Source: Saccharibacter sp. 17.LH.SD (lineage in GTDB: Bacteria; Pseudomonadota; Alphaproteobacteria; Acetobacterales; Acetobacteraceae). From it: a stretch of DNA of 64,000 nucleotides. The notes under the pieces are model-generated. The model was not told the DNA's origin. It did not search any database and saw nothing but the letters and a program-made list of their open reading frames with translations. Location: positions 498,501 to 562,500 of the forward strand of contig NZ_WVHO01000009.1 in NCBI RefSeq assembly GCF_009834805.1. Direction: 5' to 3'. A program made the position numbers and the translations under genes. Numbering within the stretch: the first letter of the stretch is position 1; the number at the start of each line of letters is the position of its first letter. Positions 12,001-59,739 of the stretch are shown piece after piece.

Positions 12001-14847
12001 ATGACGATCCCCACTCGCCATTTGATGCTCTGTGTATCTGCTTTGTCCATGGGGCTTCTTCCTGGGGTAGCCGTTGCAGATGTTGGGCAGCATGGAAAAG
12101 ACGCACGTTATTCTACGCACCACTCATCCATAAAAGGAGATCTTAAGGGGCCAACGCATGCAGCACGCGCAATGCGTGCGCGGGCTCTGCATGGGGTCAG
12201 TAGCCATCGTATTGAAGAAGTGATAGTCACAGGCTCAATGTTGAGTACATCAAAGAACTCGAATGCCAATCCTGTTCAAATAATTTCTAGCAAACAAATT
12301 ATGCAGACAGGTGTGACGAGTTTGAACGACGCGTTGCAGCGTATGCCGTCAGTGGGTTCAAACGGTCAAAATAACACGACGACAAACGGAGGAGGAGGAG
12401 CTGCGTGTATCGATCTCCGTAACCTCGGTTCTAACCGTGTTTTGGTATTGATTGATGGGAAACGTACAGCACTCAATGCACAGGCGAGCTGTGTGGATCT
12501 GAATACGATTCCCATGCAGCTGGTTGATAGTGTTGAAATTCTTAAAGATGGAGGCTCAGAACTCTATGGGGCAGATGCTGTTTCTGGTGTGATCAATATT
12601 AAACTCCGTCATGATACGACAAAAGGTGGTATTCTTATCCGTGGCGGGATTACAGGCCACGGTGATGGCAAGAATGGAATATTATCAGCGTATAAAGGTT
12701 GGAACTTTGATGAGGGGCGCGGCAATATTACTGTGTCTGGATCCTACAATACGACAGAAGGAATCCGGCAGAAAAATAGGGGATGGGCACATCCTGTAGA
12801 GATTGGGACAGATGGGACGACCTTTGGGTCTGGTACTAGTCCTCAGCCTTTATGGCTGGGTGATAACGGGAACCCAATACCGGGGCAGCCCCCACGGTCG
12901 CGTTATGATTTTACTCAAGATTCTTGGCTGACGAATAGTGTCAATACGGGGACACTGTATGGCGATGCACATTACGATTTTAACAAGCATTTTACTTTAT
13001 ATTCCAATGTTCTTTACAGCCATCGTAATTCCTTGTCACAAATGGCTCCGCAAGGATTTTTTGGAAGTGTTACGCCGTCGACATTGCCGTCGAATTTGAC
13101 GGTGCCTGCTAATTATCCTGGGAATCCTTTTAGGCAGGATGCAACCATGGCGACGCGGCGATTTACAGAATTTGGCCCTAGGCGTTTTGAAAATGCGTCA
13201 GATACCTACACCGCGAAAGTTGGGTTGAAAGGTGAGATCATTGCAAACTGGATGTATGATGCATCCTTCACCTATGGATGGAACCAAGTCTTAGAGCATG
13301 ATGAGAATATGGGCAATTATGCCGCTCTTTTAAATGAATATGGACTGCGTCAGATTAACCCAGGAAACTCTAATAGTGCCCTCGCTTATGATCCGTCTTT
13401 ATGTCCTTCATCAGGGTGTGTGAGCCCTTTTAAGCCTCTTTCGGGTAAGGCTGCGGCTTATGCGAATGCGACAACCAATCAGCATAGTTATTATCAACTG
13501 CGTGATTGGAATTTGAGAATACATAACAATCAAGTGACGCGCATGCCATGGGAGAATGGGGGGCGTCTTGGCATTGCGTTGGGCATGGAGCATCGGGGTG
13601 AGCAGCTCTCTCAAACGCCAGATCCATTGGTTTCATCGGGTCAATCTATGGGCAATGCTACAACGTATACCGGGGGTGGTTTTCACGTAACGGAAGGTTA
13701 TGCGGAAAGTAACATTAACCTGTTGCATAATGCCTTTTTGGCGAAGGATCTGACGATCGACGGGCAGGGGCGTGTTTCTGGCTATAATAACATGGGCATT
13801 ACAAAGAATTGGAAAGCGTCTATTAACTGGATGCCAACGCGGGATGTGCGCTTCAGAGGAACGATTGGGACGTCTTATCGACAGCCACAAGTTTATGAGC
13901 TCTATCAAGGAGAACAGATAAGCTATATAGAGGCGCAAGACCCGTGTGATATGAATCAAATCTCTACATATGGAGCGCAACAGGCGGCTGTTGCAGCAAG
14001 GTGCGGTCAGCAGGGAATTAATACAAAGAAATTTGTGGCGCAGGGTAGTGGGCAGGTACCGACGATGTCGGGAGGGAATAGTCACCTTCATGCGGAAACT
14101 TCGCGCACCTATACTTTTGGAGCTGTATTTACACCACGTTGGGTTCCAAGATTAATGGTTTCTGCTGAATATTGGCATACAAATGTTAATCAAACGATTG
14201 GGGTTCTTGGCACACAATATGTTCTTGATCAATGCTATACATCCGGCAACCTCTGTGGTAGCGTTCAGCGCTATAATAATAATGGACATCAAATTAAACA
14301 AGTAACAGCTAATACTGCTAATCTTGGTGGTTTGAGAACGAGTGGTATTGATTTTGATTTGAATTATTCGCTTATTTTAACGCCATATGATGTTGTCAGT
14401 TTAAGTAACACTATTCAACAGCTTGTGACGTATAAGCAACAAAATTCACCTGGTGGACCATGGTATAATTACTCAGGTAGACTATTGTATAATGCGTCAC
14501 CGTCTGTGGGACAACCTAAACTGCGTGATTATGCGACGGTAACTTGGCGGCATAATAACTTTAGCATTACCTATATGATGCAATATATGAGTGGAATGAC
14601 GTGGAATAACTCGACAAGAGATTTAACGTTGGCCGATGGTCCGCGTTACAAGACGCCTGATATGTTTGAGCATGATGTAACCTTGAATTACCGTATGGGG
14701 AAATGGAATTTTGAAGGGGGTATTAATAATATCACCAATAAAAGACCTCCTTTCGTGGCGGATGGTACCCAAAATACCGTTGGGAATATGTATGGAGGTT
14801 ATTTTGCCGGACGTTCCTTCTTCATGCAGGCTAATGTTGATTTTTGA
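12001..14847 (+). CDS. TonB-dependent outer-membrane receptor, copy 1
   Basis: The 948-residue protein has a Sec signal peptide (cleavage probably after GVAVA), a variable linker, a TonB-box-like EEVIVTGS stretch near residue 77, a plug domain with LNDALQRMPSV and NRVLVLIDGKR, and a long 22-strand-type barrel ending FFMQANVDF; the terminal Phe is the usual outer-membrane insertion signal. Two Cys in the plug (CIDLRNLGS and SCVDLNTIP) may form a disulfide. The receptor imports an unknown ligand with TonB energy. It is the first of a tandem pair with the gene at 15140; they differ mainly in the post-signal linker and in extracellular-loop segments. No signalling (STN) domain is present. Confidence 0.93.
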   Translation: MTIPTRHLMLCVSALSMGLLPGVAVADVGQHGKDARYSTHHSSIKGDLKGPTHAARAMRARALHGVSSHRIEEVIVTGSMLSTSKNSNANPVQIISSKQIMQTGVTSLNDALQRMPSVGSNGQNNTTTNGGGGAACIDLRNLGSNRVLVLIDGKRTALNAQASCVDLNTIPMQLVDSVEILKDGGSELYGADAVSGVINIKLRHDTTKGGILIRGGITGHGDGKNGILSAYKGWNFDEGRGNITVSGSYNTTEGIRQKNRGWAHPVEIGTDGTTFGSGTSPQPLWLGDNGNPIPGQPPRSRYDFTQDSWLTNSVNTGTLYGDAHYDFNKHFTLYSNVLYSHRNSLSQMAPQGFFGSVTPSTLPSNLTVPANYPGNPFRQDATMATRRFTEFGPRRFENASDTYTAKVGLKGEIIANWMYDASFTYGWNQVLEHDENMGNYAALLNEYGLRQINPGNSNSALAYDPSLCPSSGCVSPFKPLSGKAAAYANATTNQHSYYQLRDWNLRIHNNQVTRMPWENGGRLGIALGMEHRGEQLSQTPDPLVSSGQSMGNATTYTGGGFHVTEGYAESNINLLHNAFLAKDLTIDGQGRVSGYNNMGITKNWKASINWMPTRDVRFRGTIGTSYRQPQVYELYQGEQISYIEAQDPCDMNQISTYGAQQAAVAARCGQQGINTKKFVAQGSGQVPTMSGGNSHLHAETSRTYTFGAVFTPRWVPRLMVSAEYWHTNVNQTIGVLGTQYVLDQCYTSGNLCGSVQRYNNNGHQIKQVTANTANLGGLRTSGIDFDLNYSLILTPYDVVSLSNTIQQLVTYKQQNSPGGPWYNYSGRLLYNASPSVGQPKLRDYATVTWRHNNFSITYMMQYMSGMTWNNSTRDLTLADGPRYKTPDMFEHDVTLNYRMGKWNFEGGINNITNKRPPFVADGTQNTVGNMYGGYFAGRSFFMQANVDF

Positions 14848-15139: not shown

Positions 15140-17998
15140 ATGACGATCCCCACTCGCCATTTGATGCTCTGTGTGTCTGCTCTATCTATGGGGCTTCTTC
15201 CTGGGGTAGCTACGGCGAATGGGGGGCAATATAGCAAAGCGGTAAAATATTCTGCGAAACAGCCATCTGTAAAAGCGCATCCTCGAGGGCGAACCCATGC
15301 AGTAAGTGCAACGCATGCCCGAGTGTTGCACGGGGTGAGAAGTCATCGCGTTGAAGAAGTGATGGTCACGGGTTCGATGCTGAGTACATCAAAGAACTCG
15401 AACGCTAATCCCGTGCAAATCGTTTCGAGCAAGCAAATTATGCAGTCAGGTGTGACGAGTTTGAACGATGCGTTGCAGCGTATGCCGTCAGTGGGTTCAA
15501 ACGGTCAGAATAATACATCTACTAATGGTGGTGGTGGAGCTGCATGTATCGATCTCCGTAACCTTGGGTCTCAACGTGTTTTGGTGTTGATTGACGGAAA
15601 GCGCACAGCACTCAACGCACAATCCAGTTGTGTGGATTTGAATACAATTCCCATCCAGCTGGTTGATAGTGTTGAAATTCTTAAGGATGGGAGTTCAGAA
15701 CTCTATGGGGCAGATGCTGTTTCTGGTGTGATTAATATTAAACTCCGCCATGATACGACCAAGGGTGGTATCCTTATACGTGGTGGGATTACAGGCCGTG
15801 GCGATGGCAAGAATGGGATTTTGTCAGCGTATAAAGGTTGGAATTTTGATGAAGGCCGCGGGAACATTACAATATCCGGGTCCTACAATACGACAGAAGG
15901 AATAAGGCAGAAAAATAGAGGTTGGGCGCATCCTGTGCAAATTGGAACGGATGGGACAACCTTTGGATCCAGTTTGAGTCCTCAGCCTTTGTGGCAGGAT
16001 GTTAATGGAACTACGTTGCCATATGGGCAGCCAGGACCACCGCGATATGATTTTGGTCAGGATCAATGGCTGACCAATAGTGTCAATACCGGGACACTTT
16101 ATGGTGATGCGCATTATGATTTTAACAAGCACTTCACCCTATATTCTAATGTTCTTTACAGCCACCGTGATTCACTGTCTCAATTAGCACCGCAAGGCTT
16201 CCAAGGGAGTGTTACCCCGTCGACATTGCCATCAAATCTGACGGTTCCTGCTGATGATCCTAGGAATCCTTTTAAGCAGGATGCAACCATGGCGACGCGG
16301 CGATTTACAGAATTTGGCCCTAGGCGTCTTGAAAATGCGTCAGATACCTATACGGCGAAAGCGGGGTTAAAGGGCGAAATCATTGCAAACTGGATGTATG
16401 ATGCATCCTTTACTTATGGGTGGAATCAAGTTTTAGAGCATGATGAAAATGTTGGTAATTATGCGTCTCTCTTAAATGAATATGGTTTACAGCAAATCAC
16501 ACCTGGGAATGCTAGTAGCGGCCTTAAATATGATCCGTCTTTATGCCCTTCGTCTGGATGTGTAAGTCCTTTTAAGCCGCTTTCTGCGAAAGCAGCGGCT
16601 TATGCGAATGCGACAACCAATCAACATAGTTATTATCAACTGCGCGACTGGAATTTGAGAATACATAATAATCAAGTGGCGCGGATGCCATGGGAACATG
16701 GAGGGCGTCTTGGGATTGCGCTTGGCATGGAGCACCGTGGGGAACAGCTTTCTCAAACACCTGATCCGTTGGTTTCGTCAGGACAAGCGATGTCGAACGC
16801 CACGACCTATACAGGAGGTGGTTTCCACGTAACGGAAGGTTATGCGGAAAGTAACATTAACCTGTTACATAATGCCTTTTTGGCGAAGGATCTGACGATT
16901 GATGGTCAGGGGCGTGTCTCTGGTTATAATAACTTAGGGGTGACGAAAAACTGGAAAGCATCCATTAACTGGATGCCAACGCGGGATGTGCGTTTCAGAG
17001 GAACAATTGGGACATCGTATCGACAGCCGCAGGTTTATGAGCTCTTTCAAGGAGAGCAGATAACCTATGCGGAAGCACAAGATCCGTGTGATATGAATCA
17101 AATCTCTACATACGGAGCACAACAAGCGGTTGTTGCAACAAATTGTGGTAACTCCATCAAAAAGTATAACAAACATAAGTTTGTAGCACAGGGAGGTGGG
17201 CAGATCCCTACTATGCAGGGCGGGAACAGCCATCTTCAGGCAGAGACCTCACGGACGTACACGTTTGGAACGGTATTTACTCCACGTTGGGTTCCGAGAT
17301 TGATGGTTTCTGCCGAATATTGGCATACGAATGTTAGTCACACGATTTCGCCTCTTCAGACACAATATGTTTTGGATCAATGTTATACGTCTAAAAATCT
17401 TTGCGGTAGCGTTCAGCGGTATGGAAGCGGGCAGATCAAACAGGTAACGGCCAATTATGAGAATCTTGGTGAGTTAAAGACAAGCGGTATTGATTTTGAT
17501 TTGAATTATTCGCTTATCTTGACGCCATATGATGTGGTCAGTTTGAGCAATACGATTCAACAGCTCGTAACCTATAAGCAACAGAATGTACCAGGAGGGC
17601 CCTTTTATAATTATTCTGGCCGACTGCTTTATAACGGAATAGGGCAGAATTCGGCTGGAGGGCTCCCTAAGCTGCGTGATTACGCAACAGTGACGTGGCG
17701 GCATAATAACTTTAGCATTACCTATATGATGCAATATATGAGTGGAATGACATGGAATAATGGAACGCGGGACTTAACGGCTGCTGATGGTCCTCGTCAC
17801 AAGACGCCAGATATGTTCGAGCATGATCTGACACTTAATTACCGTATGGGGAAATGGAATTTCGAAGGAGGTATTAATAATATTACGAATAAAAGACCTC
17901 CTTTCGTGGCAGATGGCGGCCAAAATACCGCAGGGAGTCTGTATGGAGGTTATGTTGCAGGGCGTTCCTTCTTTATGCAGGCTAATGTTGATTTTTAA
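15140..17998 (+). CDS. TonB-dependent outer-membrane receptor, copy 2
   Basis: The 952-residue paralogue of the preceding gene has the same signal peptide, a diverged linker, the EEVMVTGS box, an almost identical plug and a barrel ending FFMQANVDF. Most differences are silent in the plug and transmembrane strands; replacements and short indels concentrate in a few barrel segments, for example around residues 285-305, 665-690 and 735-775, which probably are surface loops. This pattern suggests that the two receptors recognise related but different ligands or escape phage or host recognition. It has its own leader and so can be expressed independently. A terminator follows at 18052. Confidence 0.93.
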   Translation: MTIPTRHLMLCVSALSMGLLPGVATANGGQYSKAVKYSAKQPSVKAHPRGRTHAVSATHARVLHGVRSHRVEEVMVTGSMLSTSKNSNANPVQIVSSKQIMQSGVTSLNDALQRMPSVGSNGQNNTSTNGGGGAACIDLRNLGSQRVLVLIDGKRTALNAQSSCVDLNTIPIQLVDSVEILKDGSSELYGADAVSGVINIKLRHDTTKGGILIRGGITGRGDGKNGILSAYKGWNFDEGRGNITISGSYNTTEGIRQKNRGWAHPVQIGTDGTTFGSSLSPQPLWQDVNGTTLPYGQPGPPRYDFGQDQWLTNSVNTGTLYGDAHYDFNKHFTLYSNVLYSHRDSLSQLAPQGFQGSVTPSTLPSNLTVPADDPRNPFKQDATMATRRFTEFGPRRLENASDTYTAKAGLKGEIIANWMYDASFTYGWNQVLEHDENVGNYASLLNEYGLQQITPGNASSGLKYDPSLCPSSGCVSPFKPLSAKAAAYANATTNQHSYYQLRDWNLRIHNNQVARMPWEHGGRLGIALGMEHRGEQLSQTPDPLVSSGQAMSNATTYTGGGFHVTEGYAESNINLLHNAFLAKDLTIDGQGRVSGYNNLGVTKNWKASINWMPTRDVRFRGTIGTSYRQPQVYELFQGEQITYAEAQDPCDMNQISTYGAQQAVVATNCGNSIKKYNKHKFVAQGGGQIPTMQGGNSHLQAETSRTYTFGTVFTPRWVPRLMVSAEYWHTNVSHTISPLQTQYVLDQCYTSKNLCGSVQRYGSGQIKQVTANYENLGELKTSGIDFDLNYSLILTPYDVVSLSNTIQQLVTYKQQNVPGGPFYNYSGRLLYNGIGQNSAGGLPKLRDYATVTWRHNNFSITYMMQYMSGMTWNNGTRDLTAADGPRHKTPDMFEHDLTLNYRMGKWNFEGGINNITNKRPPFVADGGQNTAGSLYGGYVAGRSFFMQANVDF

Positions 17999-18705: not shown

Positions 18706-21657
18706 TCACCTCGCCTCTCTCCTTTCTTGTAAGAAAACTTCTATTTCTGATAGCGCGTCGTCGAACGGTAGACGTTTGATAGGGACCCCCTTAGGAAAAG
18801 CAGAGAGTAGGCGTGATGGCATCCGCCGGTCGAGCGTAACAAAAACCCCATAATCATCAGAGCGACGAATAAGGCGGCCGAAGGCTTGCTGTAGGCGCAT
18901 GCGCGTGATTTGATCATCATAAGCCCCGGGTCTGCCGCCAGAGAGAAGGCGCCGACGTTCGCGGTGGAGAATGTCGGGCCGTGGCCATGGTGTGCGTTCA
19001 AAAACGACCATTTGTAATGCTTCTCCTGGTACATCTACGCCGTCGCGCATGGCATCCGTCCCCAGTAGGCAGCTATGGGGTTCGGTGCGGAAAACGTCGA
19101 TGAGGGTGGCGTTGTCCATCGCGTCAACATGCTGCGCGTAGAGGGGGAGCCCCTGTAGGGCGAGGGCCTCATGGATGCGGCGGTGAACTTCTTTTAAACG
19201 TTGGATGGCTGTAAAAAGCCCAAGAGCTCCGCCCCGTGAGGTTTCAAATAAACGTTGAAACGCGTGTGCCAGGGAGGCCATGTCTTTTGGCACGTCCGTA
19301 ATAATATAAGCGCGTGTTTGTTGTGCGTAATTAAAAGGACTCATGAGAGCCGCTCGAAGGGGAGGCTGGAGGAAATGTGTTGTGCCGAGGCGCTGCTCTG
19401 CTTTTTCCCAACTTTCTTCTTCGGTATCGTCACCATCACGGTCGCGTAACGTGGCCGATGTCATGAGGAGCCCGTGTGTTGTGCTCTGCAATGTGCTGGC
19501 AAAGGGGATGGTTGGATCAAGCCAATGTCGGTTGAGAGCTATGTCATAGCTTTCTTCCATAGTGCGAAGGGCAGGAAGGCGTTCTCGGCGAATGAAATCA
19601 ATATAAAGAGGATGATCATGTGGATTGGGAGGTGTGATGATCGTCCGAAGAATGCCCACCCATCCTTGGAGGCGTGAGAAAGCGCGCCGATAGAGGCTAC
19701 GGAGTGTCGACTCAAGCCGTTGTCGGAAGGGCATGTCGCCTTCTTCAGCAGGAGCTTCGAGCTGCTCGCTGATGAGTTTGATGAGTTGATCAAGGGGACG
19801 AAGGATGGCTTGTAGAGCGTTAAGAAGATGTTCCGTCGCTTCCGTGAGGTCGGGAATGGTGGGATGTAGATCGCATTCTTGACGGGTATGTGAGACGTCG
19901 CCTCGCTGTTGTTGGTGCTCTTCTTCGCGTCGAGCCAGAAGTTGTCGCTCAAGCATGAAGAGAAATATTTCAGCCGGGTGGTCAAGATCCTCAGGAATGG
20001 TTCCTGGTGGTGTTTCTGTCCCTTGAGTGGGCTGCTCCCGGGTCGCTTGTAAACGTAGGCTCCAGCCTGGTCGAGGGAGGCCTTTTTGAGTAGCATAAAT
20101 CAATGTTTGAAAAGGGGCTTGCAGCTCGGGAAGACGTTCTAAAATATCATCCATGCGCCGTGCTAAGCCACGAGCACGGGAGCGACTTCCTTCAGCGCCT
20201 AAGAGCCAGCGTCTGAGTTCAGCGGCCTCTAAACCAGAAAAAGTGAGCGAGAAGGCGCTGTCTGCAGCATCTGGAATGTGATGGCCTTCATCAAAAACGT
20301 AACGTGTCGGGATTCCATTTTCATCAGCGATATCGGCTGGAGCGCGTTTTTGGGGAATCAGCGCATTCCAGGCAGCCTGAGAGAGGACAAGTGCATGATT
20401 AGCAATGACTAAGTCAGCATGCTGAGCACGGCGTATACTATGTTCAATAAAACATGTTTGGTAATGAGGGCAGGCTGCGTGAATGCATTCACCGCGTCTA
20501 TCGGCAATGGCTGATAAGAGTCCATGGCTAAATAATTCACCAAACCAGCCGGGAAGGTCTCCGCCCATCAGATCACCATCAGATGTGCATTCAGCCCATC
20601 TTATGAGCAGTGTGAGGGGTATGAGGCTATGTTTTTGCTGTGGTGGACGATTTTGGACAGTGTTGAGAATATCTTCAAGATTTAAAAGACAAAGATAATT
20701 TTCACGCCCTTTGCGAATAACAGCCTTCTGGCGCCGTTGCTCAGCATCCGGGTAGAGGCGAATGAGTTCTTGCTCGATTTGGCGTTGTAAATGGCGTGTA
20801 TAGGTGCTGATCCACACAGCACCATCATTGGTTTCTGCCCACAAACTGGCTGGAGCAATATACCCCATGGTTTTTCCAGTCCCTGTTCCGGCTTCGGCCA
20901 AAATAATGTTCGGAGCGTTAGGGATATCACGTGGGCGGAAGGCATGGGTAACTGCAGAGGCGAAGTCGGCCTGGCCTGGTCGAGGTTCAGCCGAATGACC
21001 AAGCATTGTGGCTAAGCGTTTTCGGGCAGCAGTAGGGTCAACAGGTTGGCTTCCCGGGTGAGGGCGCTGAGCTTTTTCTTCCCATTGAGGCAGACGTTTC
21101 CAAACTTTTAGGATGTCATAAGCGGTGCTTCTTTTGGGGGCTGCCGTTGCGAATGTGGATGATGTTTCATGTAAGAACTGTTCGAGAAAAGGAGCCCAAC
21201 TCCATCCTGCTTGGCGCAAAGGGATAAGAAAAGCGTGCAAACGGGCTTTTATAGAAGGGGTCTGAGCGGCTTCCTGTAAATCTTGCACGAGCTTTTCACA
21301 AATTTGATAGAGTATATCAGCCGTTAAGATTGTTTCTTTAAGGGCTTCAGGTGTTAATAGACCGAGTTCTAGACCGATACCGCGTGCTGTAGGTGTCGCG
21401 CTCCGTGCAGGATGAACGAAGAGAAAAAGCTCCAACAAGTCGAACCAAGGGGCCGGTGGGGGTTCGGGGGGAAGACTTAAAATACGGAGTGTGGCGGGCC
21501 CGTGAATAAGAAGTGGAGGCGGCATCGTGCGAAGTTGTGCACGCAGCTCGTCCTTTCCGAGTTCCATGAGCTCTCCATCTGGAGTGAGCAGGGAAGAAAG
21601 CCCGTAAGATGCAATAAGAGCAGGCGCTTGGAAGGGAGAACGTATTGGGTCTGACAT
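18706..21657 (-). CDS. DinG/XPD-like ATP-dependent DNA helicase
   Basis: A superfamily 2 helicase of 983 residues. Walker A (GTGTGKT) is near residue 258, the DEAH-like box (DEGH) near 455, and motif VI-like FGRLIRRSDDYG near the C-terminus. Between motifs I and II lie Cys residues (NYLCLLN, then CIHAACPHYQTC) spaced as in the iron-sulfur cluster of XPD/DinG helicases. The first 230 residues are a family-specific N-terminal region of unknown role. It would unwind damaged or R-loop DNA in the cytoplasm. The start is ATG 21657, next to an in-frame GTG at 21660. It diverges from lysK across about 105 bases, so their promoters must be close or overlapping. Confidence 0.9.
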   Translation of the reverse strand: MSDPIRSPFQAPALIASYGLSSLLTPDGELMELGKDELRAQLRTMPPPLLIHGPATLRILSLPPEPPPAPWFDLLELFLFVHPARSATPTARGIGLELGLLTPEALKETILTADILYQICEKLVQDLQEAAQTPSIKARLHAFLIPLRQAGWSWAPFLEQFLHETSSTFATAAPKRSTAYDILKVWKRLPQWEEKAQRPHPGSQPVDPTAARKRLATMLGHSAEPRPGQADFASAVTHAFRPRDIPNAPNIILAEAGTGTGKTMGYIAPASLWAETNDGAVWISTYTRHLQRQIEQELIRLYPDAEQRRQKAVIRKGRENYLCLLNLEDILNTVQNRPPQQKHSLIPLTLLIRWAECTSDGDLMGGDLPGWFGELFSHGLLSAIADRRGECIHAACPHYQTCFIEHSIRRAQHADLVIANHALVLSQAAWNALIPQKRAPADIADENGIPTRYVFDEGHHIPDAADSAFSLTFSGLEAAELRRWLLGAEGSRSRARGLARRMDDILERLPELQAPFQTLIYATQKGLPRPGWSLRLQATREQPTQGTETPPGTIPEDLDHPAEIFLFMLERQLLARREEEHQQQRGDVSHTRQECDLHPTIPDLTEATEHLLNALQAILRPLDQLIKLISEQLEAPAEEGDMPFRQRLESTLRSLYRRAFSRLQGWVGILRTIITPPNPHDHPLYIDFIRRERLPALRTMEESYDIALNRHWLDPTIPFASTLQSTTHGLLMTSATLRDRDGDDTEEESWEKAEQRLGTTHFLQPPLRAALMSPFNYAQQTRAYIITDVPKDMASLAHAFQRLFETSRGGALGLFTAIQRLKEVHRRIHEALALQGLPLYAQHVDAMDNATLIDVFRTEPHSCLLGTDAMRDGVDVPGEALQMVVFERTPWPRPDILHRERRRLLSGGRPGAYDDQITRMRLQQAFGRLIRRSDDYGVFVTLDRRMPSRLLSAFPKGVPIKRLPFDDALSEIEVFLQERREAR

Positions 21658-21762
21658 CACGTGATAGTGTATCGAGAAACGAGGTTTCTGCCGAGAGGTT
21701 TCTTAGATGTTTGAAGTGCTTGCTTGACCAAGAAGCTCAGGCTCCATAATTTCTCAATCCTT

Positions 21763-23355
21763 ATGCAAAAAAAGACCTCTTCTATCTCATCTGATTCGTC
21801 ATTCCCCAAATTGTGGCCGTTTGAGGAAGCTCGAAAAATTGTCGTACGTGTCGCCGATAGAGACCCGGCGAAGCCTGTATTGCTGGAAACAGGGTATGGC
21901 CCATCAGGTTTGCCCCATATTGGCACGTTTGGAGAGGTCGCTCGTACGAGCTGGGTGCGCCAAGCTTTTGAAGCCATGACCGGGCGTCCTACACGTTTGC
22001 TGACATTCTCTGATGATATGGATGCATTACGGAAAGTGCCCAGTAACGTGCCTCAGCAGGACATGCTGGAGAAGCATCTAGGCTTACCATTGTCACGTAT
22101 TCCCGATCCATTTGGAGAATATGAGAGCTTTGCGGCGCATAATAATGCACGCTTGCGTCAATTTCTGGATAGTTTTGGTTTTCAATACGAATTTGCGTCC
22201 GCTACGGATTATTACACGCGGGGTGTATTTGACGCGGCTTTAAAGCGTGTTCTTGAAGAGCATGATAAAATTGTTGCGGTGATTGCTCCCACATTGGGCA
22301 AGGAGCGACGTGCAACCTATTCGCCCGTTCTGCCCATTCATCCAGAGACTGGGCGTGTCATGCAGGTGCCGATTGAGCAGGTAAACCCTGAGGTCGGCAC
22401 TGTTGTTTGGAAAGATGAGGACGGGCGGCAGTTCGAGACATCTGTCTATGGTGGGCATGCCAAAATGCAGTGGAAGGCCGATTGGGCCATGCGTTGGTAT
22501 GCTTTAGGTGTTGATTACGAAATGTCCGGTAAGGATTTGATTGATAGCGTTAAATTATCATCGAAAATCTGCCGTATTCTCGGGAAAACGCCACCTGTTG
22601 GGCTGACATATGAGCTCTTTTTAGATTCCCAAGGACAGAAGATCAGTAAATCTAAGGGGAATGGTCTCTCTGTTGAGGAGTGGCTTCGTTATGGGCCGGC
22701 GGAGAGCTTGGGGCATTATATGTTTCAGCAGCCGACACGGGCAAAGCGTCTTTATACGGACATGATTCCTCGGGCGACGGATGAATATTTGGCCCTCGTG
22801 CAAAAGGGAACAACACAAAATAAGGAAGAGTTTCTCGCTAACCCTGTATGGTTTATTCATGCGGGTCAGTTTCGCCCTCAGGATACAAGCCCCGTTTCTT
22901 TTACCGCATTGTTAAATCTTGCGAGCGTGGCGAATGCCAAAGAAGTGGCCACGTTGTGGAAGTTTTTACAGCGTTATGATGCTTCACTCTCTCCTGAGAG
23001 TCACCCTTATGTGGCGCGTTTGGTCGAGCATGCATTGGCTTATTTCAATGAGCGTGTTCGCCCCAATAAAGTATATCGCGCACCGAATGAGACGGAGCGT
23101 AAGGGGCTTGAAGATTTGGCCGAAGCTCTTAAGGCTGTTCCTGCAGGGGCCTCTCCGGATGATGTGCAAAATATCGTTTTTGAAGTTGGGAAACGATATT
23201 TTGAGAAATCCGAGTTACGTTCTTGGTTCGGATGCTTATATGAGGTCTTGTTAGGGCAAAGCGAAGGGCCACGATTTGGTATTTTTGCCTCTCTCTTTGG
23301 CTTGAAAGAAACGGTCGCCTTGATTGAAGAGGGGCTGAAGCGCTCTGACGTTTAA
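21763..23355 (+). CDS. lysK: Lysyl-tRNA synthetase, class I
   Basis: This charges tRNA-Lys with lysine. The class I signature HIGH appears as HIGT in TGYGPSGLPHIGTFGE near residue 50, and KMSKS as KISKSKGNG near residue 290, so it is not the unrelated class II LysS. The start is ATG 21763 (MQKKTSS); an in-frame TTG at 21724 is an alternative. Length is usual for the family. The next gene, 73 bases away on the same strand, encodes an MprF-like protein that in its complete form uses lysyl-tRNA, so the neighbourhood links lysyl-tRNA supply with lipid modification. Confidence 0.95.
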   Translation: MQKKTSSISSDSSFPKLWPFEEARKIVVRVADRDPAKPVLLETGYGPSGLPHIGTFGEVARTSWVRQAFEAMTGRPTRLLTFSDDMDALRKVPSNVPQQDMLEKHLGLPLSRIPDPFGEYESFAAHNNARLRQFLDSFGFQYEFASATDYYTRGVFDAALKRVLEEHDKIVAVIAPTLGKERRATYSPVLPIHPETGRVMQVPIEQVNPEVGTVVWKDEDGRQFETSVYGGHAKMQWKADWAMRWYALGVDYEMSGKDLIDSVKLSSKICRILGKTPPVGLTYELFLDSQGQKISKSKGNGLSVEEWLRYGPAESLGHYMFQQPTRAKRLYTDMIPRATDEYLALVQKGTTQNKEEFLANPVWFIHAGQFRPQDTSPVSFTALLNLASVANAKEVATLWKFLQRYDASLSPESHPYVARLVEHALAYFNERVRPNKVYRAPNETERKGLEDLAEALKAVPAGASPDDVQNIVFEVGKRYFEKSELRSWFGCLYEVLLGQSEGPRFGIFASLFGLKETVALIEEGLKRSDV

Positions 23356-23428
23356 GAAACAGCGTCAAATATGGATGTTGTAAAATATTAAGCGCAGTAA
23401 TGCATGCATCACGCTTATACCGGTTGAT

Positions 23429-25441
23429 GTGCCAAGAAAGGAACGTTTTTTGCAGGTTTCAGCTCGTTATCAGCGCTTGATGATGAGAGCACCGGCCCTT
23501 TTTGGGGCGGTGCTTCTTGTGGTGGCTGTTGTCGTCATATGGCGTGAATTACGACATCTCTCCGTGCATGATATCGTTCTAGGATTGCATGCGATCCCCG
23601 TGCAGGCCTTGTGGAAAGGAGTTGGGGCGACATTTCTCGCTTATTTCATTCTTTCTTTTTATGATGGCTTGGCGTGCCGGCACGTTAATGCGGGCGTTTC
23701 TTGGGGGCGCTCTGCGTTCGTTGCCTTTTGCTCTTATGTGTTGTCGCACAACATTGGGTGTGCTGCTGTATCAGGCACAGCGGTAAGGTATCGTCTTTAT
23801 CGCAGTTGGGGTGTGCCTAGCGGAAAAATTGCTTCCATCATTGCTTTTTGTTCGTTGACCTATTTGTTAGGGACAATTGGGTTGGTGGGGTTTGTCTTGC
23901 TGTGGCAACCTCAGGCTATTCCATTTTTGTCTCATGCGCCTTTATGGATTTCTCATTGTGCTGGAATAGGATGCTTTGGGGCGTTGCTCGCCTATGTTGG
24001 ACTTTCGATATGGAAAAAGGAAATCAAGATCTATCGCTGGCGACTTGATCTGCCACGATGGGACATTAGCATTGCGCAGATTTTAATCAGTATGGCCGAT
24101 ATGTCGGTCACAGCATTGATTGCGTGGTGTGTGATCGGTCCACTACCCCCAGGGACGGGATTAAATTTTGGTGGGTTTCTTGCCATTTATATCGTGGCTT
24201 ACACGGCTGGTCTTGTAGCAAGTGTTCCTGGAGGGTTAGGGGTTTTTGACAGCGCTATGTTGTTAGCATTGTCTCCTTGGCTTCCTCTCCCGCGTATTAT
24301 GGGGGCTATCCTAGTTTTCCGTTTATTCTACTACATCATCCCGCTGATATTAGCGGGCGTGATGTTTGCTGGACATGAGCTATTATTGCGGGGAATGCCT
24401 TCTCTTTCTCAACGGCCAGGACAAGGTGGAATCCTGCATCCTAATCAGGTTGTGCGTGAGTCAGAGGCTGATTTTTCAGTCATTGTCGCGACAAGTGTTC
24501 AGGCTGTTTTAGGGATAGTGACGATCCTTTATGCGTTGCTTGCTCCCTTGCCAGTTTTTCATTCGGTCATTCATGCCACTATATTGCAGCTGTCAGCTTT
24601 TTTATTGTGGTTGTGTGGTGTCATCTTGTTTGGGCTGGCTGGAGGTCTGTCTCAACGTGTGGCCTTAGCATGGCGTTTATCTGTGTATGTGCTGTGTGCT
24701 ACCTTGGTTGTATTAGGGTTAAGACAAGCTCATTGGGCCGTTTTCTTGTTTGTAGCAGCCGTCCTTGTGGTGCTTTTGCCTTTCAAAAAGGGATATTATC
24801 GGCAAGCCCATTGGCGTGTTGAACCTTTATCTCCGTCTATCTTAGCGCCTATCTCGTTGTGGGCGGTTGGCCTGGCCGGAGTAGGCTGGGTAGGGTTACA
24901 ACGTCATCTTGGTCCTGTCTGGTGGCGGGCGATGATTTATGATGCGCATACCGCTATAGGCCGATGGTTCATGGGCATTTCTGCTCTGTGCTGTCTGTTT
25001 GCGTTGTGGCGGGCTGTTCGGCGGACGCGTCTTCATCCCTTGCCGTGGAATCTACAAAATGCTGCGAAATATGGATGTCTGGTGGATGCCGCAACGACGA
25101 CACATATGTTGCGCGATGTGAAGATTATGCCTGATGGAATTATTCAGGATGAATCAGCAAAAGCAGCGCTAGCCTTTATCAAAAGGGATCCTTTTCTTGT
25201 ATCGTTAGGGAGCCCTGTGGGGGTGAAAGCTTTCCATGCAGCGGCGATCTGGCGATTACGCGATTATGCTGTACAGGAAGGCTATGGGTTAGTGTTTCTT
25301 CAGGATGATACGACATTAAGAGATATATATGAGGATATAGGGCTGAACGGATTTGTTCTGAAAAAAGGTGGATATTGTTTTTGTAACATTAATCAATATC
25401 CCCTTGTGCAGTCTTATCTAGATCGGCTTGGCTTACGCTAA
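23429..25441 (+). CDS. mprF: MprF-like lysyl-phosphatidylglycerol flippase, truncated synthase domain
   Basis: The first part (to about residue 320) is the polytopic flippase domain of the UPF0104/MprF family, including the segment AGLVASVPGGLGVFDSAMLLAL; further membrane segments run to about residue 530. The C-terminal part starts the DUF2156 synthase domain: SLGSPVG, then RLRDYAVQEG and YEDIGLNGF. It stops at residue 670, just after the first GNAT-like half, where typical MprF proteins (about 850 residues) continue for some 150 more residues. The aminoacyl-transfer half is therefore missing and it may only flip lipids or do something else. Start is GTG 23429 with a poor ribosome site. The last bases overlap the end of the convergent gene. 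Confidence 0.8.
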   Translation: MPRKERFLQVSARYQRLMMRAPALFGAVLLVVAVVVIWRELRHLSVHDIVLGLHAIPVQALWKGVGATFLAYFILSFYDGLACRHVNAGVSWGRSAFVAFCSYVLSHNIGCAAVSGTAVRYRLYRSWGVPSGKIASIIAFCSLTYLLGTIGLVGFVLLWQPQAIPFLSHAPLWISHCAGIGCFGALLAYVGLSIWKKEIKIYRWRLDLPRWDISIAQILISMADMSVTALIAWCVIGPLPPGTGLNFGGFLAIYIVAYTAGLVASVPGGLGVFDSAMLLALSPWLPLPRIMGAILVFRLFYYIIPLILAGVMFAGHELLLRGMPSLSQRPGQGGILHPNQVVRESEADFSVIVATSVQAVLGIVTILYALLAPLPVFHSVIHATILQLSAFLLWLCGVILFGLAGGLSQRVALAWRLSVYVLCATLVVLGLRQAHWAVFLFVAAVLVVLLPFKKGYYRQAHWRVEPLSPSILAPISLWAVGLAGVGWVGLQRHLGPVWWRAMIYDAHTAIGRWFMGISALCCLFALWRAVRRTRLHPLPWNLQNAAKYGCLVDAATTTHMLRDVKIMPDGIIQDESAKAALAFIKRDPFLVSLGSPVGVKAFHAAAIWRLRDYAVQEGYGLVFLQDDTTLRDIYEDIGLNGFVLKKGGYCFCNINQYPLVQSYLDRLGLR

Positions 25442-26013
25442 AATTCATCTGAAAAGAGAGATGGATCCATCCTTTGACCATAGCAGCTATAGGTTTCAAG
25501 GACCTGAAAGGGGAGAGTTTCATTGTAGCCAAATTGTTCAATGAGGCAGATATGATCCACTCTTATAGGTTGGCTGGAAAAAAGATTATGGCGTTGTATC
25601 CAGGGTATGACGTCATGATGGCGATCAGGCAACAGGTAGCCGAGCGTTAGTTCAGGCGAAAGCGTTTTGAGAGATGATGGCGGGCAATCAGCAGCTTTTA
25701 AGCGTGATGCGATGCGTTTTTGAAGGTGTGTTAAGTCGTCATTAGGCATGACTGGCGAGGTTAAGCGGTCTTTCTCATGCCCTTGGTGATGGAGAATTTG
25801 CTGTAGTTTTATAGTGAATGGAGACCATGTGATCGTCGATAACGCAAGACCGATATCCTCAATAAGGTGATAGCGATCCACCTGCCCGAGTGATTGCAGT
25901 AAGATGATTCCGTGCTTGTTGGATACCCAATGGACGTCATTAAGCGTGCCACGCAAAAGGGACAAGTCGTCATCAATGAGTGAGGCTGTTGGTAACCCAA
26001 TAGCAAGTTTCAT
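25438..26013 (-). CDS. Degenerate 2H-phosphoesterase (ThpR-like) protein
   Basis: The layout of this 191-residue protein follows RNA 2',3'-cyclic phosphodiesterase/2'-5' RNA ligase-like ThpR: an N-terminal strand MKLAIGLP, VHWVSNKH, LGQVD, and later PELTLGYL and LIEQFG. In active enzymes the two HxT/S motifs lie at NLHxTLxFLGEV and PHLTLAR. Here the first reads KHGIILLQSLGQVD and the second PELTLGYL, so the second His is Glu and the first motif is disrupted. It may be a catalytically dead descendant. Similarity is judged by eye and is moderate. It converges on the mprF-like gene with a 4-base overlap. Confidence 0.5.
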   Translation of the reverse strand: MKLAIGLPTASLIDDDLSLLRGTLNDVHWVSNKHGIILLQSLGQVDRYHLIEDIGLALSTITWSPFTIKLQQILHHQGHEKDRLTSPVMPNDDLTHLQKRIASRLKAADCPPSSLKTLSPELTLGYLLPDRHHDVIPWIQRHNLFSSQPIRVDHICLIEQFGYNETLPFQVLETYSCYGQRMDPSLFSDEF

Positions 26014-58115: not shown

Positions 58116-59447
58116 TTATGATTCCGTTTGAGAGAGCCATTGAGGCAATCGCTCATGAGCCATGAGCTCTTCTAGGCTTTGGCGTTGGCGGATGATCTCC
58201 CATTTCCCCTCATGAATCATAACCTGAGCTGCAAAAGGGCGCGAGTTATAGGTAGAACTCATGACGGAGCCATAAGCGCCAGCATCTAAAAAAGCGAGGA
58301 TATCATGACGTTTGAGAGAGGGAAGGGCACGTTGGCGTGCGAATGTGTCACTGGATTCACAAACAGGCCCGACGACATCGACACGTTCTATCGGGGTTGA
58401 GGGGCTTGTGGGGCCGACAGGAAGAATACCGTGCCATGAATCATACATCGCTGGGCGCACGAGGTCATTCATACCGGCATCAACAATAGCGAATTTACGC
58501 ACACCTTCTTTCGTATCAATGACCTGCGTTAAGAGCACACCAGCAGGTGCTGCGAGCCAACGTCCTGGCTCAATGCGAAGATGGACGTCCATATCACCAA
58601 AAATATCGTTGATGACATGGGCGAGCATGGAAGGTGGTGGGGCTATTTCATCGCGGTAAGTGATTCCCAAACCACCCCCACAGTCAATTTCTTCTACGGT
58701 GAGACCCTCATGCCGCAAAGAACGGATGAGCTCTGCGATTTTGGTATAACCTTGTCTGAAGGGAGCTTCAGTTGAGATCTGGCTTCCAAGATGGACAGCT
58801 AGCCCCACGAGATGAATACCGGACATTTCGCGTTGAGCATGACGATAAAGAGCGTGGATCTCATTATAAGCGATACCGAATTTGTCTTCAGCGCGGCCCG
58901 TTGTGATTTTATCATGCGTTTGCGCATCGACATCAGGATTAACGCGAAGGGAAATGCGCGCGCGTTTTTTCATAGTGCTGGCAAGAGCATTAAGACGGTA
59001 GAGCTCTTCACGGCTTTCAACATTTATTTGAGCAATATCATGTGTAATAGCGAGCTTGAGCTCATCATCTGTTTTGCCGATTCCAGAGAAGACAATACGC
59101 TCTGCGGGGATATTGGCGGCAAGAGCACGTTGTAATTCCCCACCGCTGACAACATCAGCTCCCCAACCTTGCTGGGCAAGAAGTGACAGACAAGCACGGT
59201 GGTCTTGTGACTTAACGGCGAAATGGTAGTCAATGGGTAAGCTATATGCTTCGAAAGCAGTTTGCATGTCCTGGGCGCGTTGGCGGAGTGTTCCGGCATC
59301 AATGATCCAGCATGGCGTGCCGACAGCCTGTGCAATATCGCGCAGAGCAACCCCGCCCATAACCAACCCGCGTTGTAGATCCTTCTTAAGGGTCGGATGG
59401 TTGTGTAGTAGGGTGTCTAAGGTGGGGTCAGGATGTGAAGTAGTCAT
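58116..59447 (-). CDS. lysA: Diaminopimelate decarboxylase
   Basis: LysA makes lysine from meso-diaminopimelate, the last step of the pathway. The PLP Lys is in HFAVKSQDHR near residue 80; the SGVGKT-like segment reads VFSGIGKTDDELK, and EIDCGGGLGIT and RIEPGRW bind the cofactor phosphate. The C-terminal CESSDTFARQR segment supplies the Cys of the second active site. Length (443) is normal. It is followed by the DUF4175 gene and preceded by two tRNA-Arg genes. Confidence 0.95.
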   Translation of the reverse strand: MTTSHPDPTLDTLLHNHPTLKKDLQRGLVMGGVALRDIAQAVGTPCWIIDAGTLRQRAQDMQTAFEAYSLPIDYHFAVKSQDHRACLSLLAQQGWGADVVSGGELQRALAANIPAERIVFSGIGKTDDELKLAITHDIAQINVESREELYRLNALASTMKKRARISLRVNPDVDAQTHDKITTGRAEDKFGIAYNEIHALYRHAQREMSGIHLVGLAVHLGSQISTEAPFRQGYTKIAELIRSLRHEGLTVEEIDCGGGLGITYRDEIAPPPSMLAHVINDIFGDMDVHLRIEPGRWLAAPAGVLLTQVIDTKEGVRKFAIVDAGMNDLVRPAMYDSWHGILPVGPTSPSTPIERVDVVGPVCESSDTFARQRALPSLKRHDILAFLDAGAYGSVMSSTYNSRPFAAQVMIHEGKWEIIRQRQSLEELMAHERLPQWLSQTES

Positions 59448-59562: not shown

Positions 59563-59639
59563 TGGTGCACCCGAGAGGACTCGAACCTCTAACCCCCAGA
59601 TTCGTAGTCTGGTGCTCTATCCAGTTGAGCTACGGGTGC
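59563..59639 (-). tRNA. tRNA-Arg(ACG), copy 1
   Basis: The 77-base gene, including an encoded CCA, folds as a cloverleaf: acceptor GCACCCG/CGGGTGC, anticodon stem CCAGA/TCTGG with loop CTACGAA (anticodon ACG, reading CGN after deamination to inosine), and T arm GGTTCGAGTCC. It lies 100 bases from a near-identical copy. Confidence 0.95.
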
Positions 59640-59662: not shown

Positions 59663-59739
59663 TGGTGCACTCGAGAGGACTCGAACCTCTAACCCCCAGA
59701 TTCGTAGTCTGGTGCTCTATCCAGTTGAGCTACGAGTGC
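59663..59739 (-). tRNA. tRNA-Arg(ACG), copy 2
   Basis: Identical to copy 1 except in one acceptor-stem pair: here GCACTCG pairs with CGAGTGC, so a C-G pair has become U-A. Both halves changed together, so both genes can fold and are probably functional. Confidence 0.95.

Follow-up and report, generated by a model that had tools for sequence, protein, structure and literature searches.

What remains of the bifunctional flippase and synthase MprF when half of its synthase is missing, and what would such a protein do directly behind the gene of a lysyl-tRNA synthetase (LysRS)? This question is raised by a locus of Saccharibacter sp. 17.LH.SD (Acetobacteraceae), whose genome of 2.1 Mb in 13 contigs has an estimated completeness of 100% and from which we analyzed a window of 64,000 nucleotides (contig NZ_WVHO01000009.1, positions 498,501 to 562,500; coordinates below are those of the window). 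The MprF-like gene encodes 670 amino acids, and we consider its product to be probably a lipid flippase or scramblase that derives from MprF and lacks the known transferase site. Its origin (MprF) is ordinary, but its form is unusual, with the second GNAT fold of the synthase apparently excised in a form that is family-wide, under selection and encoded behind LysRS. The gene is composed as follows:

23429 (GTG)-25441, + strand: short MprF-like gene, 670 amino acids
23462-24409, + strand: flippase subdomain 1 (transmembrane helices TM1-8), residues ~12-327, from PF03706, model helices and residue counts
24458-25015, + strand: subdomain 2 (TM9-14) with R458 (R456 of Rhizobium tropici), residues ~344-529, from model helices and residue counts
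25028-25363, + strand: GNAT fold 1, residues ~534-645, from PF09924 profile positions 30-95
25364-25372, + strand: inferred junction, the place where full-length MprF would have GNAT fold 2, from structure, profile and shuffle comparisons
25373-25426, + strand: C-terminal strand and helix, residues 649-666, probably corresponding to the C terminus of full-length MprF, from the model, VIA and the shuffle test

In the profile alignment with full-length MprF that the original prediction had proposed, NF033480 (bifunctional MprF) matched the protein over positions 6-623 of its 841; with 295 bits against a curated cut-off of 600, the protein falls outside this equivalog. The flippase region of PF03706 was recognized above its cut-off (residues 30-308, 50.7 versus 33.4 bits), while PF09924 (LPG_synthase_C) matched with profile positions 30-95 of 298 alone and below its cut-off (24.2 versus 27.5 bits). 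A complete synthase domain with two GNAT folds is thus not present and fold 2 is absent, as had been predicted. An AlphaFold model of the short protein (25-row alignment, mean pLDDT 83.2) matched solved MprF in Foldseek (E 2.3e-23, TMq 0.63, root-mean-square deviation [rmsd] 8.9), and VIA aligned it with six solved MprF chains over 534-582 residues (Z 27-32, rmsd 5.4-6.9; best Z 32.0 across 558 residues), so that the overall fold is that of MprF. GNAT fold 1 resembles the soluble domains of five solved MprF structures (VIA Z 11.8-15.7) and, among the matches listed, also NAGS and other acetyltransferases by fold (Z 7.6-9.6), a likeness that is too general to assign a function.

The original prediction had the protein end directly after the first GNAT half, with its synthase half cut; this picture did not survive closer inspection. 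The model ends with a strand (residues 649-652) followed by a helix (654-666), and these match the C-terminal end of full-length MprF. In VIA comparisons with five solved MprF soluble domains, 126-133 residues of the model pair, and the aligned range reaches as far as the C terminus of those chains (e.g., model 542-669 with 542-860 of 6lv0). In a shuffle test, the C-terminal tails of 60 short proteins were compared with the 40 C-terminal residues of 31 full-length proteins and gave a mean best score of 27.63 versus 25.08 for 60 shuffles (standard deviation [sd] 0.56, z 4.5), of which the highest reached 26.80. The same tails scored at z -0.2 against the contiguous linker and at z -0.6 against the middle of the second fold, and the best tail pairs have a RYLVC-like stretch in common. 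Alignment of the tails with hhalign gave the same rank order (C-terminal end 10.5, linker 8.0, middle 6.8) at a probability of 0.65%, which is weak, so the case for excision rests on the shuffle test and the VIA residue ranges. Since the tails resemble the C-terminal end of full-length MprF and not the contiguous linker, it appears that GNAT fold 2 was removed from within the chain, with the closing strand and helix of fold 1 retained; a length comparison of short and full-length proteins puts the missing piece at ~190-200 residues. From structure and tail alignments we infer that fold 2 is nested within fold 1. FemX has an analogous nested layout.

The potential lysyl-tRNA site of MprF is the cleft between the two GNAT folds (PMC8131360). 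With fold 2 absent, this cleft cannot exist in the short chain alone, and the known transferase site is therefore gone.

The short form is no peculiarity of one genome. A match was found in 185 of 200 family genomes, with flippase-only forms (see below) counted in and lengths known among the matches listed. We fetched 60 loci, selected because their match lay on a contig of sufficient length, of which 59 encode 640-712 amino acids and one (L078) is interrupted at 402; among the matches listed, PF09924 recognizes only fold 1 in the short forms. The 80 best matches, a set of named relatives that overlaps the 60 loci and includes Saccharibacter, Bombella, Gluconobacter, Neokomagataea, Asaia, Acetobacter and Komagataeibacter, have lengths of 629-704 amino acids, and the proteins of Saccharibacter sp. 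EH611 and S. floricola are each 69% identical to ours. At least 12 of the 200 family genomes hold an extra PF09924 match (E <1e-80, most of the profile; split over contigs in G069) beside a separate short form. Among the 12 extra loci fetched, 11 have a frame of at least 866 amino acids and one (L137) is a 509-amino-acid fragment; in a flippase-part tree of 99 rows, full-length copies inside the family group with those of other Alphaproteobacteria. In a class search that covered 337 genomes by our count, 24 matches outside the family extend to at least position 635; 23 lie in open frames 841-918 amino acids long, and the other one is that of G274 (see below). No short form was seen there, with frames left unexamined in G477, G217 and G409 (714, 651 and 609 amino acids, flippase-part matches only) and in G202 (weak match in the GNAT part, 119-amino-acid frame, one stop). 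L078 and L137 were dropped from the divergence, tree, residue and tail comparisons.

Two frames outside the family stand apart. In G274 (C60:61332-62279), a frame of 598 amino acids matches only from about TM9 on and is possibly an alphaproteobacterial MprF without the flippase part. Locus L116 of another alphaproteobacterial family (G226) has a frame of 859 amino acids with an MprF-like first part and a degenerate second GNAT half in which the usual motifs are lacking; synthase function may have been lost there independently. The locus was kept in the tree and left out of the full-length group in the divergence, residue and tail counts.

The three remaining parts of the short protein are all maintained. 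Simple Nei-Gojobori counts for 26 non-overlapping close pairs of named relatives gave a median omega of 0.045 for the flippase, 0.045 for TM9-14 and 0.060 for GNAT fold 1 (highest 0.33). All three are under purifying selection, which means that the orphan fold does not drift. Between more distant short proteins, TM9-14 and fold 1 have diverged faster than the flippase, a difference that full-length MprF does not show: where the mean distance of the two flippase parts is 0.5-0.6, that of TM9-14 is 0.752 and that of fold 1 is 0.669 among 761 pairs of short proteins, compared with 0.542 and 0.403, respectively, among 73 pairs of full-length ones (in both groups, the pairs are not independent). 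The lower bins (0.3-0.4 and 0.4-0.5) point the same way, but contain no more than 7 and 19 full-length pairs, respectively. This faster divergence had suggested decay of a synthase remnant, which we rejected because strong purifying selection speaks against neutrality; the constraint on TM9-14 and fold 1 is changed but retained.

Residues with a role in transport were located by aligning the proteins to R. etli MprF with HMMER and carrying over the published R. tropici numbering (offset +2), and were counted in 60 short proteins, i.e., the window and 59 others. The gate pair and head-group residues of R. tropici (E280-R304, D234 and Y307) have their counterparts in subdomain 1 of each: R298 and Y301 (R304 and Y307) are invariant, position 274 (E280) is D in 54 and E in 6, and position 224 (D234) is D in 49 and E in 11, while all 7 flippase-only proteins keep D224, D274, R298 and Y301. 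The Staphylococcus aureus counterpart of E280 is Asp254 (PMC8131360). N108 (R. tropici N117) is present in 59 of the 60 short proteins, in 4/20 and 0/11 full-length proteins and in 4/7 flippase-only ones, and Y303 of R. tropici is replaced by F297 in 60/60. Of the residues that dock the first GNAT fold, R456 corresponds to R458 and its acidic partner E611 to D612 (60/60 each), and D635 is matched by D in 47/60.

Seven family genomes keep only the flippase part behind LysRS, namely, three of genus g69, three of genus g90 and G103 (loci L146-L152 of G068, G140, G187, G089, G193, G150 and G103, respectively). Five of these proteins have 315-320 amino acids and two have 400 and 458 from an early start codon; L150 matches the bifunc_MprF model. 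In genera g97 (3 genomes), g54 (3), g24 (1) and g3 (1), LysRS is present and no MprF-like match was found, though one of these 8 genomes (G002) has a completeness of 91% and its LysRS gene sits at the end of a contig, and neither gene was seen in G182 and G183. The LysRS-linked proteins form one group in the flippase tree (support 100/99), within which g90 and G103 fall among the short forms (92/99, below the starred level) and g69 is basal on a long branch (81/84). The flippase-only form takes three changes on this tree, of which the starred branches by themselves force one, so that the count and sequence of losses are tentative. With two genera and G103 keeping only ~320 amino acids of flippase, transport is the part kept longest.

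The reading that we prefer is that GNAT fold 2 and the aminoacyl-tRNA cleft would have been lost by internal excision in or before the ancestor of the Acetobacteraceae, while the transport core (TM1-8), TM9-14 and fold 1 as a lone, closed GNAT fold are retained. Contact between R458 and D612 may hold this fold against the cytosolic face, where it would serve as a cap with a structural or regulatory role, and a lipid made by other enzymes would be moved across the inner membrane by the MprF route, with acidic D224 beneath the head group and D274-R298 as the gate; lysyl transfer would presumably have been lost. Candidate cargoes would be an ornithine-type aminolipid or bulk phospholipids. Pseudomonas aeruginosa MprF moves unmodified phosphatidylglycerol, phosphatidylcholine and phosphatidylethanolamine in vitro (PMC11980842), and no aminoacyl-lipid is therefore needed for transport. 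The source genome encodes an OlsB-like L-ornithine acyltransferase (NF052555 283 bits, below the cut-off of 320), and PF13444 has a match in 37 of 38 family genomes examined, the source genome included; ornithine lipid is a candidate cargo, no more.

Several observations weigh against this reading. OlsB-like genes also occur in 8/8 examined genomes without the short protein, which makes their co-occurrence, present with and without the short gene, uninformative as a pointer to the cargo. The transmembrane part of S. aureus MprF without its synthase gave no peptide resistance by itself (PMC2774229). Three residues of R. tropici that dock fold 1 (R136, D604 and R639) are not kept in the short proteins. 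The selection on GNAT fold 1 exceeds what a bare flippase would need, so the fold has some role, and the fixed LysRS neighbor suggests a lysine-related role that flipping leaves unexplained.

This neighbor and the flanking genes are laid out as follows:

18706-21660, - strand: DinG/YoaA-like helicase gene, divergent upstream neighbor, adjoining LysRS in 46/60 relatives
21763 (ATG; alternative TTG 21724)-23355, + strand: class I LysRS gene lysS (NF001968 807 bits, cut-off 648)
23356-23428, + strand: spacer from LysRS stop to MprF-like start, 73 bp
25438-26013, - strand: convergent 2'-5' RNA ligase/phosphodiesterase-like gene (TIGR02258 42 bits, below the cut-off of 65.7)

Immediately upstream of the MprF-like gene and in the same orientation, LysRS is found in the window, in 60/60 loci, in 7/7 flippase-only loci and, with spacers between -100 and 600 bp, in 80/80 named loci. 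The spacer has a median of 26 bp among the 60 loci and of 43.5 bp among the 80 named ones; it comes to 474 bp in L041, where the best LysRS match is a partial piece. Bifunctional MprF of other alphaproteobacterial families differs from the short form in this respect, as no LysRS match was found in the 1.5-kb flanks of 21 such loci (L116 included) and no LysRS-like frame of at least 300 amino acids in these 21 and the 12 extra copies of the family (0/33). A promoter/terminator scan listed no terminator-like site inside the 73-bp spacer, and its counts are near shuffle level with nothing usable (6 sites versus a shuffle mean of 5.1 [sd 2.3] and 7 sites versus one of 5.0 [sd 2.4]); lysS and the short mprF may be co-transcribed as a two-gene unit. 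The whole source genome has one class I LysRS match. A second, dedicated LysRS was considered and rejected, with EpmA, a class II relative, as the best other LysRS-like match (TIGR00462 373 bits, cut-off 287); the two remaining LysRS-like pieces both fall in a 632-amino-acid frame at C9:367175, which presumably encodes AspRS. Being the only LysRS found in the genome, the adjacent enzyme is therefore the housekeeping one. The lysine link that the original prediction had found attractive gains strength from this conserved adjacency beyond what the window alone could show. The tie is real as synteny and a candidate as function, adjacency not being activity. About 33 kb from the short MprF gene and on the opposite strand, there is a lysA gene for diaminopimelate decarboxylase (58116-59447; TIGR01048 440 bits, cut-off 297.9).

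How else could this arrangement be understood? A frameshift or assembly error, one of the two outcomes named in advance as fatal to the original prediction, or pseudogene decay is almost certainly not the explanation: L078 is indeed interrupted, but it is one of 60 relatives, the same length recurs in many separate assemblies (640-712 amino acids in 59/60 loci) and median omega is 0.045-0.060, which rules it out for the family. It is unlikely that the synthase is split, i.e., that another GNAT-fold protein supplies the missing half in trans with Lys-tRNA from the adjacent LysRS and that the short protein flips the product. The halves of S. aureus MprF do function in trans (PMC2774229), the LysRS adjacency and the retained acidic head-group residue would fit, and the genome encodes one FemAB-like GNAT protein of 320 amino acids (PF13480 39.6 bits; TIGR03019 36 bits, below cut-off). 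However, a genome search for a separate synthase domain, with E up to 10, returned one PF09924 match, the short MprF gene itself. A VirJ/AcvB-type protein, which would have hinted at lysyl-phosphatidylglycerol, gave no match, a weak negative as the control exceeded the cut-off in 0/14 genomes. The acidic residue is also not lysine-specific, affecting the binding of alanyl-phosphatidylglycerol as well (PMC8131360) and occurring in all four protein groups compared, and two genera do without TM9-14 and fold 1. Of the two options left by the original prediction, flipping only is thus favored by the missing tRNA-site half, and transfer by another protein would have to rely on something other than a second PF09924 domain, such as the FemAB-like protein.

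The LysRS adjacency could also mean that the two gene products form a working pair, in which the re-closed GNAT fold would sense or accept lysine, lysyl-adenylate or lysyl-tRNA from the class I LysRS and either gate flipping by lysine-tRNA charging or make a lysine lipid by a new single-GNAT reaction; we give this a low probability. A related reading, in which fold 1 has become an independent unit that receives lysine from LysRS as lysyl-tRNA or lysyl-adenylate and acts as transferase or sensor, appears very unlikely. The fold seems re-closed and is under selection behind a fixed LysRS, and LysX, which joins an MprF transferase to LysRS (PMC10580965), would have its two-gene counterpart here; yet the known aminoacyl-tRNA site needs both folds (PMC8131360), no catalytic residue was identified in fold 1, and seven genomes lack this fold and still have the LysRS adjacency. 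Finally, LysRS and a housekeeping scramblase may have stayed together by mere inheritance, an explanation that denies only the functional tie and is otherwise compatible with our preferred reading. The arrangement was found in one family only, and 8 genomes keep LysRS without a flippase match (with the reservation about G002 made above), but other neighbors moved (the helicase adjoins LysRS in 46/60 and BI-1 lies within 5 kb in 23/60, some loci stopping at a contig end) while LysRS stayed in 60/60, so that we regard inertia as unlikely.

Several known systems come close to the short protein. With the bifunctional R. tropici LpiA/MprF and P. aeruginosa MprF, it has the whole-length fold, TM1-14, GNAT fold 1 and the gate and head-group residues in common and lacks GNAT fold 2. 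LysX of mycobacteria and corynebacteria, with six predicted transmembrane helices, a GNAT-like transferase and a fused class II LysRS (PMC10580965), couples an MprF-type protein with LysRS by fusion, whereas here the coupling is by gene order: the genes are separate, LysRS is of class I, the flippase is kept and the transferase half lost. MprF1 of Clostridium perfringens is also an MprF with one of the two functions, but it is the synthase half without the flippase (PMC11980842). HpnL and other PF03706 proteins have this domain in common with the reduced forms and are of similar size, but the latter group with short MprFs and sit behind LysRS. The other PF03706 protein over the cut-off in the source genome is HpnL itself (G000:C9:571426-572334, outside the window; TIGR03476 285 bits, cut-off 195.65), and the frame adjoining its gene presumably encodes a hopanoid-associated epimerase.

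Among the papers listed in searches of an open-licence library, none describes the short form or the LysRS link in its title or abstract, and no short orthologues with proven synthase activity turned up there; the available part of PMC11630815 does not mention "acetobact". An Acetobacter gene called mprF has been annotated as phosphatidylglycerol lysyltransferase (K14205; PMC10269862), and vinegar, fruit-fly and bee bacteria may thus be credited with lysyl-lipids that they could not make by the known route. One of two Acetobacter fabarum transposon mutants named mprF differed from the wild type in fly persistence (PMC10269862); another record of this species, strain LMG 24244 (L242), has the short form behind LysRS. 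A natural MprF that lacks the known transferase site and keeps the transport half would be a clean tool for studying flippase cargo without aminoacyl-phosphatidylglycerol and for asking about the role of GNAT fold 1 alone. The flippase-only proteins of ~320 amino acids are a further reduced natural MprF suited to asking for the transporter's minimal needs, and the fixed LysRS neighbor makes the lysine link directly testable.

Beyond the two-gene unit, the bases that follow the short gene belong to the convergent gene, just as the original prediction had it: the stop codons of the two overlap, and the 2'-5' RNA ligase/phosphodiesterase-like gene is a neighbor outside the unit. Elsewhere, the window contains two tandem TonB-dependent receptor-like genes (12001-14847 and 15140-17998; 948 and 952 amino acids) and two tandem tRNA-Arg(acg) genes (59563-59639 and 59663-59739) separated by a gap of 23 bases.

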